Source: Deltaproteobacteria bacterium (lineage in GTDB: Bacteria > Myxococcota > Myxococcia > Myxococcales > Anaeromyxobacteraceae). From it: a stretch of DNA of 64,000 nt. Position 1 is the stretch's first letter, and each line of letters opens with the position of its first letter. Below are positions 2,273 through 8,445 of the stretch, in pieces. A model generated the notes under the pieces. The model saw nothing but the letters and a program-made list of their open reading frames with translations, did no database searches and was not told the DNA's origin. A program made the position numbers and the translations under genes. The DNA is taken from positions 186,001 to 250,000 of the forward strand of contig JACRMN010000010.1 of assembly GCA_016214955.1 (NCBI GenBank), written 5' to 3'.

Positions 2273-5200
2273 CTACGGCACCACCAGGCTGGTGCGCATC
2301 ATCTCCGAGTCCTCGTGCGAGTTGATGTGGCAGTGCCAGACGTAGGGGCCGGAGGTCACCGGCTCGTAGACGAAGGCCGACGCCGGGGTGCCGGCGCAGG
2401 TGAAGGCGCCGGTCAGCGGGTCGGCCGGGCAGCCGGCGCTGCCGGGCACGTTGGGCGTGCCGGCGGTCCAGCGCGCCGTCCAGTCGGCCACGATGGTGGT
2501 GACCATGCGCGGGGGAGCCTGGGTGGCGTCCTTCCAGCCTCCCTCGACGCTGGCGGCGGTCACCGGCGTGATGCCGGCGCCGAGGTAGGGCTGGCCGGCG
2601 GCGTTCAGGCCGTTGACGTCGGGGACCACCTGCATCTCGTTGCCCGGAGCGGTGCCGGGCTGGCAGGTGGCGGAGCCGCAGAGCGCGGTCTTGTAGGCAT
2701 TCACGTTGAGTGTCTGCCGGGCCACGATCTGGTGCTTCACGAGGTGCGGGTGCATGGGGTGGGCGTCGACCGTGAGGTTGATGAACTGCCAGACCTCGCG
2801 GGTCCCCTGCCTGGGCGTCTCGGTGACCTTGTACTCGAAGGGCACGCCGTTGAGCTGCATGCCCAGCGGGGTGAGGGTGACGCCGTCCACGCGCTCGTTC
2901 AGGTAGACCTGGCGCACCACGTAGTTCCCGCCGGCGAGCGGATAGGCCGGGCGGATGTCCACGAAGCTCGGGTCGGTGACCAGCGCCGGGTTGGCCGGGA
3001 TGCACAGGTTGAGGTACTTGCCGGCCTGGATCTGGCCGGCGGCACCGGCCGACAGCGCCGTGTTCTGGGCCATGTTGTTGGGGTCCCAGGTGAGGGCCGC
3101 GGGGGCGATGGGCACGTTGACCCGGCCCACGCGGACGGTGGCGCCGCAGCTCTGCACGCCGGGGCCGGCCGCGGGGCTGACGTCGAACCGCATGATGGTG
3201 TTCATGTCGGGCGTGAAGCCGTTCTGGGGGGCGAGGCCGGGGCCGGGGTACGGAGCCGAGGCGCTGTTCACCATGTAGACGGTGGCGGCGGCGCCGGCGG
3301 CCACGCCCGGCAGGGCGCCGAAGTTCACCAGCAGCTCGTACCGCTCACCGGGGCACATGGTGATGCGGCGCTGGGGCGCCAGCACCGGGTTCTTCAGGTA
3401 GCCCTGGTCGTTGGCGATGACGTAGAAGTTGGTGTTGTAGTTGACGCCGGTGGCGTTGACGGGCGCGCCGGGGGCGGGCGGCAGCATGCCGGCCACTCCG
3501 GACATGAAGCCGATGGTGTAGCAGCGCGAGTCGGAGCCATCCACCAGGCGCAGGCGGTACCAGCCGGGCTCGGTGGTCTTCTTCGGCCAGAGGACGCCGT
3601 TCACCAGCGCGTGGTCGCCGAAGTACTCGGGCACCCAGGTCGGGTGGACCAGCGGGTTGACGCCGCTGGTCACGGGGGTCACGCCGGGGGTGAGCGGCGG
3701 CGGCGCGAAGGTCTGGCCCAGGCCGTTGGAGAAGTTGATGGAGCCGTCGTCGTTGAAGGCCCGGTCCTGGATGGCGAGGAACAGGTCGTACCTGGGGGCG
3801 GTCACCGCGGGCAGCGCCGGGTTCAACGGGGCGCGGATCTCGCTGAGCGGGTCGAGCCAGGTGTAGTCGGTGGTGCAGCCGGCGTAGCCCGCCGGGCAGG
3901 CGCCGGTGGGGGCGCCGTTGAGGACGCCGCCGTGCTTGAGCGGCTCCTTCACCGGGAAGAAGCCGGCCGGGCCGGCGATGACGTTGTGGTGGGTCTTGCC
4001 CAGGGTGTGGTCGTGGAACCAGATGGTCGCCTCTTCCTGGACCATCGGATAGGCGTAGGTGTCGGCGTTGCCGCCGGGCCGCATCAGCGGGTGGGCCAGC
4101 GGCGACTCGAAGGCCGGGTTCACCATCTTGGGCGTGGGCGAGTAGAGCGCGGCGGTGGTGCTGTTGCCGACCCACTTCTCGGCGAAGCCGTCGGTGGAGG
4201 GCGGGATCTCGCCGCCGTGGAGGTGCGTCACCCAGGAGTTGTCGGGCTGCTGCGGGCTGCCGAAGGGGTTCACGCCCTCCGGGGCCACGGTCATGCCCGC
4301 CTGGATGGCGGCCGGGTCGATGCGGCTCTTCACTCCCATGAAGGTGCGGTCGATGGAGCAGGGCCAGTCGGCCGCCTCGGGGTGGCTGCAGAGGACGTGG
4401 TTGTTGGGGAACTCGTTCACCCACTTGACCACCACCGGGCGGCCCTTGGTGGCGCGGACGCTGATGGAGGGCCAGGTGGCGATGTACTGGTTCTGCGACC
4501 AGGGGCTGGGGGTCGGGGCCAGGCCGACGCCGGCGGTGCCGCCCATGTTGATCTGCCCGATGCCCCAGATCGGCGTGAAGAGCGGGGCGCCGAAGGCGAT
4601 GGCCGGGGCGCCGCCGGGGACACCGCCCACGGTGGAGGCGCAGTAGGAGGACTGGAAGAGAGGGTCCAGGCCGGCGGGGCAGGTGCAGCCCGCGGGGATG
4701 TTGCAGGTCAGGCCGGTCCACTGCATGCCGTTGGGCACCGCAATGCCGCCGACCGCGGTCGGGTTGGGGAAGGCGCCGAGGCCGGCGAGGGCCTGGAAGC
4801 CCCAGGACTCGTGCACGCCGAGCTCGTAGTAGTCGGCGCCGGGGAAGGTGGTGGTGTCGGGGGTGTAGTCGGGCGGGTTCAGCACCTCCCAGACGAACTT
4901 CTGGGTGTTGAGGTCGGGCACCACCGGGCTCAGCAGCTTGTAGCCGAAGGGGGCGCCGCAGGCAGACCAGCCACCCGCCGACTGGTTGGAGACGCCGGGG
5001 AATCCGGCCGGGCAGGCGAAGCTGTTGGGGACGTTGGCGCAGGCCCCGAGCGCCGGGAAGACCGACTGGTTGTTGAGCGTGTCGGCCACGCACTGCCCGG
5101 GGTACGGGTAGTTGACCTGGTAGTTGCTGCCAGAGGGCCCGAAGGCGTTCTGGCGGGGGAAGGCGGCGTTGGCCGCGGCCGGATCGGTGTTGGGCAGGAC

Positions 5201-5293
5201 GTAGCCCGGGGGAAGAATCTGAGCGCTGGCAGACGTGAAGACTGCCAGCACGCCGGCGCACATGGCGCCAGCGCGCTTCGAGAGGCTGGTCAC
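2273..5293 (-). CDS. large secreted multicopper oxidase
   Basis: A 1006-residue exported protein with all four copper-ligand motifs of multicopper oxidases: THLHGG near residue 356, WFHDHTLG near 425, HPMHPH near 844 and WHCHINSHEDSEMM near 987. These supply the type 1 copper (with Met as likely axial ligand) and the trinuclear type 2/3 centre, so oxidation of a substrate coupled to O2 reduction is expected. The N-terminus (MTSLSKRAGAMCAGVLAVF, then SASAQ) is a Sec signal peptide. The start is GTG with AGGAGGG seven bases upstream. The protein is about twice the length of laccases, has some 350 residues before the first copper motif and many cysteines, which fits a secreted disulfide-rich enzyme. 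Manganese or iron oxidases and Geobacter OmpB-type proteins are possible functional relatives, but the substrate is unknown. Confidence 0.9.
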   Translation of the reverse strand: MTSLSKRAGAMCAGVLAVFTSASAQILPPGYVLPNTDPAAANAAFPRQNAFGPSGSNYQVNYPYPGQCVADTLNNQSVFPALGACANVPNSFACPAGFPGVSNQSAGGWSACGAPFGYKLLSPVVPDLNTQKFVWEVLNPPDYTPDTTTFPGADYYELGVHESWGFQALAGLGAFPNPTAVGGIAVPNGMQWTGLTCNIPAGCTCPAGLDPLFQSSYCASTVGGVPGGAPAIAFGAPLFTPIWGIGQINMGGTAGVGLAPTPSPWSQNQYIATWPSISVRATKGRPVVVKWVNEFPNNHVLCSHPEAADWPCSIDRTFMGVKSRIDPAAIQAGMTVAPEGVNPFGSPQQPDNSWVTHLHGGEIPPSTDGFAEKWVGNSTTAALYSPTPKMVNPAFESPLAHPLMRPGGNADTYAYPMVQEEATIWFHDHTLGKTHHNVIAGPAGFFPVKEPLKHGGVLNGAPTGACPAGYAGCTTDYTWLDPLSEIRAPLNPALPAVTAPRYDLFLAIQDRAFNDDGSINFSNGLGQTFAPPPLTPGVTPVTSGVNPLVHPTWVPEYFGDHALVNGVLWPKKTTEPGWYRLRLVDGSDSRCYTIGFMSGVAGMLPPAPGAPVNATGVNYNTNFYVIANDQGYLKNPVLAPQRRITMCPGERYELLVNFGALPGVAAGAAATVYMVNSASAPYPGPGLAPQNGFTPDMNTIMRFDVSPAAGPGVQSCGATVRVGRVNVPIAPAALTWDPNNMAQNTALSAGAAGQIQAGKYLNLCIPANPALVTDPSFVDIRPAYPLAGGNYVVRQVYLNERVDGVTLTPLGMQLNGVPFEYKVTETPRQGTREVWQFINLTVDAHPMHPHLVKHQIVARQTLNVNAYKTALCGSATCQPGTAPGNEMQVVPDVNGLNAAGQPYLGAGITPVTAASVEGGWKDATQAPPRMVTTIVADWTARWTAGTPNVPGSAGCPADPLTGAFTCAGTPASAFVYEPVTSGPYVWHCHINSHEDSEMMRTSLVVP

Positions 5294-5925: not shown

Positions 5926-5940
5926 CGTTGCGCGCGCGGC

Positions 5941-5956
5941 AGGCAGGCGCCTGCCT
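5941..5956. promoter_or_regulatory. 16-bp perfect palindrome, candidate activator site for amt
   Basis: AGGCAGGCGCCTGCCT is a perfect palindrome containing the half-sites GCAGGC and GCCTGC. Its centre lies 70-71 bp upstream of the -24 GG of the sigma-54 promoter. The same half-sites, with a 4-bp spacer, occur at essentially the same distance before the sigma-54 promoter of the next gene (7541-7556). An enhancer-binding protein site is inferred; it does not match the NtrC consensus closely. Confidence 0.4.
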
Positions 5957-6017
5957 CGGCAGCGTGCAGCCAGGCCCAGGAAGAGGTGAAACATGGCGCT
6001 GCGAGGGGGTTTCCTCC

Positions 6018-6033
6018 GGGCACGCCCGCTGCA
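6018..6033 (+). promoter_or_regulatory. sigma-54 (RpoN) promoter of amt
   Basis: GGGCACGCCCGCTGCA matches the sigma-54 consensus TGGCACG-N4-TTGCA at all but two positions. The invariant GG (6019-6020) and GC (6031-6032) are separated by exactly 10 bases. It lies about 40 bases before the GTG start, leaving room for a short leader with GGAGGT. Nitrogen-responsive sigma-54 control is well established for amt genes in many Proteobacteria. Confidence 0.75.
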
Positions 6034-6073
6034 AAGTCAGCGAGCGCCCGCAGTCCCACCCTCGGAGGTTCAC

Positions 6074-7438
6074 GTGAAGAAGGCTCTCGCCCCGGCAGCC
6101 CTGCTGCTGCCCACCCTCGCCCTGGCCGCGCCGGGGCAGGTCGACAGCGGAGACACCGCGCTGGTGCTCGTCTCCGCAGGCCTGGTGCTGCTGATGACCC
6201 CTGGCCTGGCCTTCTTCTACGGCGGCCTGGTGCGCGCCAAGAACGTCGTCCACACCATGATCCTCTCCGTCGTCTGCATGGCGGTGGTGGGCGTGCTCTG
6301 GGCCCTGGCCGGCTACAGCCTGGCCTTCTCGCCGGGCGGCGCGGCCGACCGCTTCATCGGCGGCCTCTCCTGGCTGGGCCTCCGCGGCGTCGGCGGCGAC
6401 GTGGTGAAGGAGCTGGCGCCGACCATCCCCCACACCGCCTTCATGCTCTTCCAGGCCATGTTCGCCATCATCACCCCGGCGCTCATCTCCGGGGCCATCG
6501 TCGAGCGGGTGCGGATGAAGGCCTACCTGCTCTTCGTGGTGCTCTGGAGCCTGGTGGTCTACACGCCGGTGGCCCACTGGGTCTGGGCGCCTGGCGGCTG
6601 GCTGCGGGGCATGGGTGCCCTCGACTTCGCCGGCGGCACGGTGGTGCACATCAACGCCGCCGCCGCCGCGCTCGTCTTCGCCGTGGTCCTGGGCAAGCGG
6701 CGCGGCCTGCGCCACCCATCGGTGCTGCCGCACAACGTGCCCTTCGCCATCCTGGGTGCCGGCCTGCTCTGGTTCGGCTGGCTGGGGTTCAACGGCGGCA
6801 GCGCGCTGGGCGCCAACGGCCTGGCCGCCTTCGCCTTCGCAAACACCTTCTTCGCCCCGGCGGCGGCCGCCGCGGCCTGGGGGCTCCTGGAGCTCTTCCT
6901 CTTCCACGGCAAGATGTCGGGCGTCGGCCTGGCCTCCGGCGCGGTGGCGGGCATGGTGGCCATCACCCCGGCGGCCGGCTTCGTCACCCCGCTGGCCTCG
7001 CTCCTGATCGGCGCCCTGGCCGGCACCGCCTCGCTGCTGGCGGTTCGCCTGCGCCCGCGGCTCGGCCTCGACGACTCGCTCGACGTCTTCGCCGTCCACG
7101 GCGTGGCGGCGACGCTGGGCGCCCTGCTCACCGGAGTGCTGGCCACCAAGGCGGTCAACCCGGACGGCGCCGACGGCAGCCTGGCGCTCCTGGGCGTGCA
7201 GGCGCTGGGCGTGGCCGCGACCCTCGCCTGGTCGGGCGGCCTCTCCTGGGCGCTCATCCGGCTGGTCTCGCTCTTCACGCCGCTGCGCGCCGAGGAGCAG
7301 GACGAGTGGAGCGGCATGGACACCTCGGAGTCCGGCGAGCGCGCCTACATCCACGCGGACGAGTCCTCCAGCCTCTCGCCTCCCGCCGCCGCCCACGCGC
7401 CCGGCGTGGTGCGCCCGGCCGCCGCCCAGCACGGCTAG
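6074..7438 (+). CDS. amt: ammonium transporter (Amt/AmtB)
   Basis: A 454-residue polytopic inner-membrane ammonium channel. A signal peptide (VKKALAPAALLLPTLALA) is followed by the family-typical start of the first pore helices with TPGLAFFYGGLVRAKN. The twin pore histidines are visible: H192 in GGTVVHIN and H342 in FAVHGVAATLG; FGWLGFNGGSALGANG is the Amt signature. The C-terminal tail contains GMDTSESGERAY, the conserved cytoplasmic segment that interacts with P-II proteins. The GTG at 6074 was chosen because it has GGAGGT eight bases upstream and opens the signal peptide; an ATG at 5993 would add 27 uncharacteristic residues and lie upstream of the sigma-54 promoter. No glnK gene is adjacent, which is less usual. 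Confidence 0.95.
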   Translation: MKKALAPAALLLPTLALAAPGQVDSGDTALVLVSAGLVLLMTPGLAFFYGGLVRAKNVVHTMILSVVCMAVVGVLWALAGYSLAFSPGGAADRFIGGLSWLGLRGVGGDVVKELAPTIPHTAFMLFQAMFAIITPALISGAIVERVRMKAYLLFVVLWSLVVYTPVAHWVWAPGGWLRGMGALDFAGGTVVHINAAAAALVFAVVLGKRRGLRHPSVLPHNVPFAILGAGLLWFGWLGFNGGSALGANGLAAFAFANTFFAPAAAAAAWGLLELFLFHGKMSGVGLASGAVAGMVAITPAAGFVTPLASLLIGALAGTASLLAVRLRPRLGLDDSLDVFAVHGVAATLGALLTGVLATKAVNPDGADGSLALLGVQALGVAATLAWSGGLSWALIRLVSLFTPLRAEEQDEWSGMDTSESGERAYIHADESSSLSPPAAAHAPGVVRPAAAQHG

Positions 7439-7527
7439 CGCACCAGCCCGCCGTCCCCCGGAGCCCGCCCGGCGCCTGCCGCGGCGGGCTCCGCGCATTT
7501 CACCGTCCGTGACGCGGGCCGTCCGCT

Positions 7528-7556
7528 GCCTGCCCGGCCCGCAGGCCGCCGCCTGC
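7528..7556. promoter_or_regulatory. GCCTGC/GCAGGC half-site cluster, candidate activator site
   Basis: GCCTGC (7528-7533), GCAGGC (7541-7546) and GCCTGC (7551-7556) form two overlapping inverted repeats with 7- and 4-base spacers. The centre of the second lies 69-70 bp before the -24 GG of the following sigma-54 promoter, matching the arrangement upstream of amt. Inferred binding site for a shared enhancer-binding protein. Confidence 0.35.
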
Positions 7557-7582
7557 AGGGCGAGCAGCACCGGGGGGCCGCG

Positions 7583-7604
7583 CCGGAATCCGCACGGATT
7601 CCGG
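7583..7604. promoter_or_regulatory. 22-bp palindrome CCGGAATCCG-CA-CGGATTCCGG
   Basis: Perfect 10-bp arms separated by two bases, between amt and the next gene and 13 bases before the -24 element of its promoter. It could be the amt transcription terminator (no U run follows) or an operator; sequence alone does not decide. Confidence 0.4.
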
Positions 7605-7616
7605 GACCGGCGGCGG

Positions 7617-7632
7617 CGGCACGGGCGCTGCA
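7617..7632 (+). promoter_or_regulatory. sigma-54 (RpoN) promoter of the amt-linked exported protein
   Basis: CGGCACGGGCGCTGCA has the invariant GG (7618-7619) and GC (7630-7631) with 10 bases between them. It is identical to the amt promoter at 13 of the 15 positions from GG to the final A. It lies about 50 bases before the ATG at 7684. Confidence 0.7.
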
Positions 7633-7683: not shown

Positions 7684-8445
7684 ATGAAGAAGGTTTCCCG
7701 GGCCCTGGCCGCCGCCGCGCTGCTCGCAGCCGCCTCGCAGGCCGCCGCCACCCCGTCCACCGTCTGGTGGACGCCGGCCACCACCTACGTGCAGCCCTAC
7801 CTGGTGCCGCACCTGACCTACGACACCTACTTCGGTGAGGGCGGGGCCTACCCCATCGACTCCGGCGTGCAGATCGGCATCCTGCCCTTCGAGAAGCTCC
7901 AGGCCGAGATCGGCTTCGACCTCAACTACCCCGGCTACACCAAGAACGGCCTGCTCTTCAACGCCAAGCTGGGCGTGCCCGAGGGCGCCTTCGGCGACTG
8001 GTTCCCGGGCATCAGCGCCGGCATCTACGGGCTGGGGCTCAAGAAGGACGTGAGCGACTACAACATCCTGCACGCCGAGATCGGCAAGACGCTGGGGGCC
8101 TTCGGCACCCTGACGCTGGGCGGCTACTTCGGCAACGACAAGCTGCTGCTCGACGAGACCGGGGCCAAGGCCAACTCCGGCTTCATGGCCGCCTACGTCA
8201 CGCCCGACGTCGCCGTGGGCCTGCCCGGCCTCACCAAGATCAACTTCTTCGGCGACGTGCAGACAGGCAAGAGCGCCTTCGGCGCCTGGGGCCTCGGCAT
8301 CGGCCTCTACTTCACCCCGGCCATCGACCTCCTCGCCGGCCCGGTCTTCTTCCTCAACGAGAAGGTCCAGCCCGGCCAGTCCAAGATGATGTGGTCGCTG
8401 CAGATCGACGTCGACGTCGAGCTGCTGGCCAAGCCCAAGAGCTAG
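7684..8445 (+). CDS. amt-linked exported protein, probable outer-membrane protein
   Basis: A 253-residue protein of unrecognised family. Residues 1-22 (MKKVSRALAAAALLAAASQAAA) are a clear signal peptide. The mature part alternates hydrophobic and polar residues and is rich in Gly, Tyr, Phe and Asp, with segments such as PYLVPHLTYDTYFGEGG, LQAEIGFDLNY, LGGYFGNDKLLLDE and LGIGLYFTPAIDLLAG, as in beta-barrel proteins. The ATG has AAGGAGAGG upstream. It lies 245 bases after amt, has its own sigma-54 promoter almost identical to that of amt, and ends before a strong bidirectional hairpin. A role in nitrogen-limited growth, for example outer-membrane passage of a nitrogen source, is inferred from shared regulation only. 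Confidence 0.8.
   Translation: MKKVSRALAAAALLAAASQAAATPSTVWWTPATTYVQPYLVPHLTYDTYFGEGGAYPIDSGVQIGILPFEKLQAEIGFDLNYPGYTKNGLLFNAKLGVPEGAFGDWFPGISAGIYGLGLKKDVSDYNILHAEIGKTLGAFGTLTLGGYFGNDKLLLDETGAKANSGFMAAYVTPDVAVGLPGLTKINFFGDVQTGKSAFGAWGLGIGLYFTPAIDLLAGPVFFLNEKVQPGQSKMMWSLQIDVDVELLAKPKS

Follow-up and report, generated by a model that had tools for sequence, protein, structure and literature searches.

An ammonium transporter gene and the gene downstream of it each lie behind a sigma-54 promoter of almost the same sequence, raising the question of which activator reads the DNA upstream of both and what the second gene contributes. The two genes lie in a 64-kb stretch, the window, that comes from an Anaeromyxobacteraceae genome of 5.3 Mb (95.6% complete, 73% GC). 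The first gene, amt (6074..7438, plus strand), encodes a 454-aa ammonium transporter (PF00909, E 2.5e-114; TIGR00836, 420 bits, above the cut-off). Its proposed start, from reading the sequence, is the GTG at 6074 with GGAGG just upstream; a longer ATG frame would run into the promoter. Behind the amt stop, a hairpin-like inverted repeat, GGAGCCCGCC...GGCGGGCTCC (7460..7492, plus strand; read from the sequence), is a possible terminator between the transcription units of amt and its neighbour. The neighbour gene (7684..8445, plus strand) encodes a 253-aa protein with a signal-like helix and a predicted beta-barrel of about 12 strands. Upstream of amt, the minus strand carries a gene for a very long multicopper oxidase (1006 aa, window 2273-5293).

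An earlier note on this DNA had described the two promoters as near-identical, and our comparison agrees: GGCACGCCCGCTGCA at 6019 and GGCACGGGCGCTGCA at 7618 share 13 of 15 bases, and both have the GG-N10-GC spacing. The -24/-12 elements of amt (6019..6032, plus strand) and of the neighbour gene (7618..7631, plus strand) both read GGCACG-N4-CTGC, and GGCACG-N4-[CT]TGC occurs in the window at these two places only. Across both strands of the whole genome, this pattern gave 58 matches against 37 with a reversed control pattern, so that it is mildly enriched and by itself weak evidence; it was therefore rejected as a genome-wide regulon marker. GG-N10-GC by itself is very common.

The decision therefore had to come from conservation across the family. 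We compared 24 Anaeromyxobacteraceae genomes from six genera and inspected the upstream regions of 31 of their 53 amt matches, namely 23 amt1-type and 8 amt2/amt3-type genes. A sigma-54-like element was found upstream of all 23 amt1-type genes. One copy (G005_L092), in which the element lies 175 bp upstream of amt with a single box 114 bp before it, was excluded, leaving 22 of the 23 amt1-type promoters for counting. The 8 amt2/amt3-type upstreams were treated separately, and the strict sigma-54 pattern was seen in one of them; this pattern also gave no match upstream of E. coli glnA, showing that it can overlook genuine promoters. The neighbour gene had 24 matches in the family, of which 22 upstreams were inspected after omission of two partial ones (L006 and L070). 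In 18 of these 22, GGCACG-N4 (once GGCATG-N4) is followed by CTGC or GTGC, and the element sits 55-98 bp ahead of the start. Two others (G007 and G011) have no element of their own because the gene comes about 60 bp behind amt, and the last two belong to paralogues of about 40% identity; without these four, the neighbour promoter set comprises 18 members. The earlier note saw in the two promoters a small regulon that depends on RpoN and on an unusual activator. Its RpoN part is supported, as the elements are kept across six genera and rpoN was found in the window genome, and a sigma-54 regulon including amt and its neighbour is well supported by the conservation of these promoters throughout the Anaeromyxobacteraceae. 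Its activator part is not, since the palindrome on which it was built is not conserved and an NtrC-box geometry is found instead.

The half-sites assigned to that activator do exist. GCAGGC-GCCTGC (5943-5954) is centred 70.5 bp before 6019, and GCAGGC-N4-GCCTGC (7541-7556) is centred 69.5 bp before 7618. With half-site spacings of N0 and N4, however, the two palindromes are not one operator in register, and GCAGGC-N0-6-GCCTGC occurs at 34 places genome-wide (9 with the reversed control), so that palindromes of this kind are no rarity in DNA of 73% GC. More directly, GCAGGC-N0-6-GCCTGC was found in just 2 of the 22 amt promoters and 1 of the 18 neighbour promoters, an outcome that the earlier note itself had named as counting against its proposal. 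GCAGGC/GCCTGC was thus rejected as the operator.

A different signal is conserved. Two 17-bp boxes precede amt on the plus strand: box 1, TGCGCGCGCGGCAGGCA, fits TGC-N11-GCA (5929..5945; 90 bp before the -24 GG), and box 2, TGCCTCGGCAGCGTGCA, follows 23 bp from it (5952..5968; 67 bp before the GG). The neighbour promoter carries box 1, TGCCTGCCCGGCCCGCA (7527..7543, plus strand), 91 bp before its -24 GG, and again 23 bp from it a degenerate box 2 with one mismatch, CGCCTGCAGGGCGAGCA (7550..7566, plus strand). When the region 20-130 bp before the -24 GG was searched, at least one strict TGC-N11-GCA was present in all 22 amt and all 18 neighbour promoters. In 400 rounds of dinucleotide shuffling, the mean number of promoters with a site was 1.05 for amt and 0.68 for the neighbour, with maxima of 5 and 3, respectively, and every other TGC-Nn-GCA spacing tested was found in at most 3 of 22 amt and 3 of 18 neighbour promoters. 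The boxes come as pairs with a spacing of 22-23 bp; measured from the GG, box 1 mostly starts 89-93 bp and box 2 67-70 bp upstream. Strict pairs are present in 21 of 22 amt promoters and in 8 of 18 neighbour promoters; the remaining 10 neighbour promoters have a single strict box, and in each of them a partner with one mismatch lies at a distance of exactly 22 or 23 bp. This arrangement also accounts for the amt palindrome (5943..5954, unstranded), which consists of the GCA that ends box 1, a GGCGCC linker and the TGC that starts box 2. All 22 amt promoters contain GCA-N5/6-TGC, with a linker whose sequence varies freely, which fits a seam. On this reading, the palindrome is the seam of two putative NtrC-type boxes and no operator of its own.

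The boxes nevertheless differ from the textbook motif in their inner bases. In the upstream region of E. coli K-12 glnA, used as a positive control, the same 17-bp geometry was recovered in TGCACCAACATGGTGCT and AGCACTATATTGGTGCA, which are 32 bp apart, are each one mismatch from TGC-N11-GCA and are, we take it, the known NtrC sites of this promoter. Over 76 boxes from the family, the majority consensus is TGCCCG-N5-CGGGCA, in which the TGC and GCA ends are fixed by construction. Published descriptions, in the excerpts available, give the NtrC box as TGCACC(A/T)4TGGTGCA (PMC4987338) or as the 17-bp TGCACCAnnnTGGTGCA (PMC8743547). The enteric consensus TGCACC-N5-GGTGCA is not matched, with A at position 4 in only 7 of the 76 boxes, and the inner bases are mostly CCG/CGG where the enteric consensus has ACC/GGT. 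The conserved putative operator has the standard NtrC-box geometry in a GC-rich variant, arranged in phased pairs.

To which genes this arrangement belongs was seen from a scan of the 24 genomes for two TGC-N11-GCA boxes 23 or 22 bp apart. The scan returned 77 tandem pairs (54 at 23 bp and 23 at 22 bp), compared with 15 (7 and 8) for the reversed control. With gene labels set by hand from coordinates and tblastn, 59 of the 77 pairs lie at nitrogen-linked genes: 23 at amt1, 18 at glnA, 8 at the neighbour gene, 4 at amt3-type and 2 at amt2-type genes, 2 at P-II, 1 after ntrC and 1 at a porin after amt. These 59 include the pair behind ntrC, which had no glnA in the stretch examined, and the pair before the porin, which is unrelated to the neighbour protein. 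The other 18 are about as many as the control predicts. The genes that share the tandem boxes agree with the Proteobacteria-wide core of the NtrC regulon (glnA, amtB, glnBK, ntrB and ntrC) as listed in an excerpt of PMC5343134.

The window genome itself has five tandem pairs, four of which precede amt1, glnA, P-II-ntrB-ntrC and amt2; the fifth, within a long open frame, is taken as chance. At its glnA and amt2, the boxes stand at the same distance from the sigma-54 element as in the promoters above, with the elements GGCATGCAGCATGC and GGCGCATGGCTTGC, respectively. Its amt3 has the element TGGCACGACCGCTGCAA with a box 92 bp before the GG, and the strict tandem pattern does not pick up this promoter, whose box has one mismatch. 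No clear -24/-12 element was seen at the tandem box 164 bp upstream of P-II-ntrB-ntrC (L148:1457-1495), so this box may act otherwise, and it may be a site of repression or autoregulation. In three relatives (G003, G004 and G009; loci L152, L198 and L204), tandem boxes lie just behind ntrC; from there it is about 800 bp downstream to the sigma-54 element of glnA, where 90 bp is usual. In G012 (L154:5179-8882), a tandem box has a divergent DcaP-type porin gene on one side and genes for the binding protein and permease of a branched-chain-type ABC transporter on the other; nitrogen may control this pair as well.

Judged by gene context and domain content, the likely activator is an NtrC-type protein, encoded in the glnB-ntrB-ntrC-glnA cluster. 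In relatives, the genes for P-II, an NtrB-like kinase, the NtrC-type regulator and glnA are clustered; in the window genome, glnA lies about 6.7 kb further on. The regulator has a receiver domain (PF00072), a sigma-54 AAA+ domain (PF00158) and a Fis-type HTH (PF02954), together with a GSFTGA loop, and in alignment its recognition helix shares the core RNTL with E. coli NtrC, with different flanks. It scores 465 bits on the NtrC model TIGR01818, below the cut-off of 558.6, which was reached by only 1 of 14 control genomes. When 60 genomes were sampled from the order, orthologues at a strict E <= 1e-150 were found in 18, all within the family; at this threshold, absence elsewhere is uninformative. 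A PDB sequence search with this NtrC returned the expected relatives only.

The protein encoded by the neighbour gene has no Pfam or NCBIfam family match, and a 27-member alignment gave three weak, scattered Pfam matches, in one member each, with a best E of 0.032. An AlphaFold2 model built from 27 sequences has a mean pLDDT of 82.3 and a pTM of 0.78, and shows a signal-like helix followed by a barrel of about 12 strands. In VIA-align, this model matched the COG4313 outer membrane channel 4rl8_A with a Z of 16.3 (rmsd 3.3 over 199 residues, 13% identity), and FapF, KdgM and NanC with a Z of about 15-16 (15.0-15.8 for NanC and KdgM, at no more than 13% identity); Foldseek TM-scores were modest (0.46 for 4rl8_C). 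That many barrels match the model indicates the fold and not the substrate. The neighbour is accordingly predicted to be an outer-membrane beta-barrel.

This family travels with nitrogen genes. The neighbour protein's closest named relatives come mostly from Anaeromyxobacter species and Myxococcales bins, in keeping with the Anaeromyxobacteraceae as the family of the window genome. Within up to 4 kb on either side, amt and/or P-II accompany the neighbour-family gene at 28 of 35 loci (L160-L194). By group, the linkage is found at 13 of 14 loci within the Anaeromyxobacteraceae and 15 of 20 elsewhere, and is absent at one A. oryzae paralogue. The linked loci outside the family come from Acidobacteria, Nitrospirae, Nitrospinota, Poribacteria and Deltaproteobacteria bins, among others. 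NtrC boxes were searched for at 22 distant barrel-gene loci, where a strict tandem pair was found only in L181 and a single box in L185. The L181 pair, from a Nitrospirae bin, has a 22-bp spacing and lies 254-276 bp before the start of the barrel-gene match. In one genome (G013), the search of the 24 family genomes did not find the neighbour protein; there, an unrelated BBP2 porin (PF07642, E 2.2e-51; L224:2196-3399) lies behind amt with a tandem box and a sigma-54 element of its own. The repeated pairing suggests that a route through the outer membrane, for ammonium or some other source of nitrogen, is co-induced with Amt. It is possible, though rather doubtful, that the family consists of dedicated outer-membrane channels for ammonium or small nitrogen compounds, in series with Amt and switched on together with it. 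Our search of the open-access literature found nothing on an NtrC operator of Anaeromyxobacter or Myxococcota, or on this barrel family.

Altogether, amt and its neighbour are very probably separately promoted members of the general Ntr regulon under NtrC and sigma-54, with the palindrome as a by-product. From the genes and sites described above, we infer the following course of events. Under nitrogen limitation, NtrB would phosphorylate the NtrC-type regulator encoded in the glnB-ntrB-ntrC-glnA cluster, whose dimers would then occupy the paired 17-bp boxes of the TGCCCG-N5-CGGGCA type, which are separated by two helical turns and in most cases start about 90 and 68 bp upstream of the -24 GG. 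NtrC would oligomerise and open sigma-54 polymerase at GGCACG-N4-CTGCA, and the inner-membrane ammonium transporter and the predicted outer-membrane barrel would be turned on simultaneously. The GCAGGC/GCCTGC palindrome would arise from two facing inner half-boxes.

Of the other explanations, the one that deserves most attention, unlikely as it is, keeps the boxes and changes the protein: they would be bound by another of the 46 loci of the window genome that match the sigma-54-activator region, such as C21, or jointly by several. C21 does score higher on the NtrC model, with 492 bits where the ntrBC-glnA protein reaches 465, but its best family is AtoC and its recognition helix reads SRKSL instead of NRNTL. 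It does not adjoin glnA, and was set aside as the activator, whereas the ntrB-ntrC pair adjoins P-II, glnA and the boxes themselves.

The two remaining explanations dispense with the boxes or with the second promoter. A separate enhancer-binding protein reading GCAGGC/GCCTGC and running a two-gene RpoN regulon would explain why both palindromes stand at almost equal distance from the two sigma-54 elements; given their unequal spacing, their rarity in both promoter sets and the fact that the amt copy is accounted for by the junction of two conserved boxes, we consider it very improbable. Still harder to credit is that amt alone is regulated, the neighbour promoter being a chance resemblance or the gene being served by read-through from amt. 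The abundance of GG-N10-GC and the arrangement in G007 and G011, where the neighbour follows amt closely without its own sigma-54 element, would agree with it, but 18 of the 20 other neighbour upstreams have both a sigma-54 element and a box, and the exceptions are the two paralogues. We therefore retain the Ntr regulon, with separate promoters for amt and the barrel gene.

Members of the Anaeromyxobacteraceae include nitrogen-fixing soil bacteria. With these boxes, an operator can be defined for the family's nitrogen regulon, and they show how the NtrC box reads in 73% GC DNA. With a barrel family tied to ammonium uptake, the crossing of the outer membrane by ammonium at low concentration becomes a testable question.

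The closest parallel is the enteric NtrB-NtrC/sigma-54 regulon of E. coli and Salmonella, which has the same core targets, glnA, amt, P-II (glnB/K) and ntrBC, by the core list in the excerpt of PMC5343134, and the same paired 17-bp TGC-N11-GCA boxes upstream of -24/-12 promoters. The two systems differ in that the boxes are 32 bp apart at E. coli glnA and 22-23 bp apart in the Anaeromyxobacteraceae, and that enteric boxes have ACC/GGT inside while those described here are CCG/CGG-rich. The Desulfovibrio response regulator DVU3220 has a GSFTGA loop like the NtrC-type protein here and targets an amt-P-II operon, according to excerpts of PMC3333781 and PMC4641369, the latter of which, in that part, reports no predicted motif for it. 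The COG4313 channel (PDB 4rl8) and the NanC/KdgM porins share a barrel fold with the neighbour model at no more than 13% identity, the neighbour itself having no Pfam or NCBIfam match. Here, unlike in the enteric NtrC regulon, genes for predicted outer-membrane barrels turn up repeatedly among the putative members. Apart from the GC-rich variant of its operator, nothing about this Ntr regulon is out of the ordinary; the barrel neighbour, linked to amt and/or P-II in several phyla, is less usual and is the part worth following.
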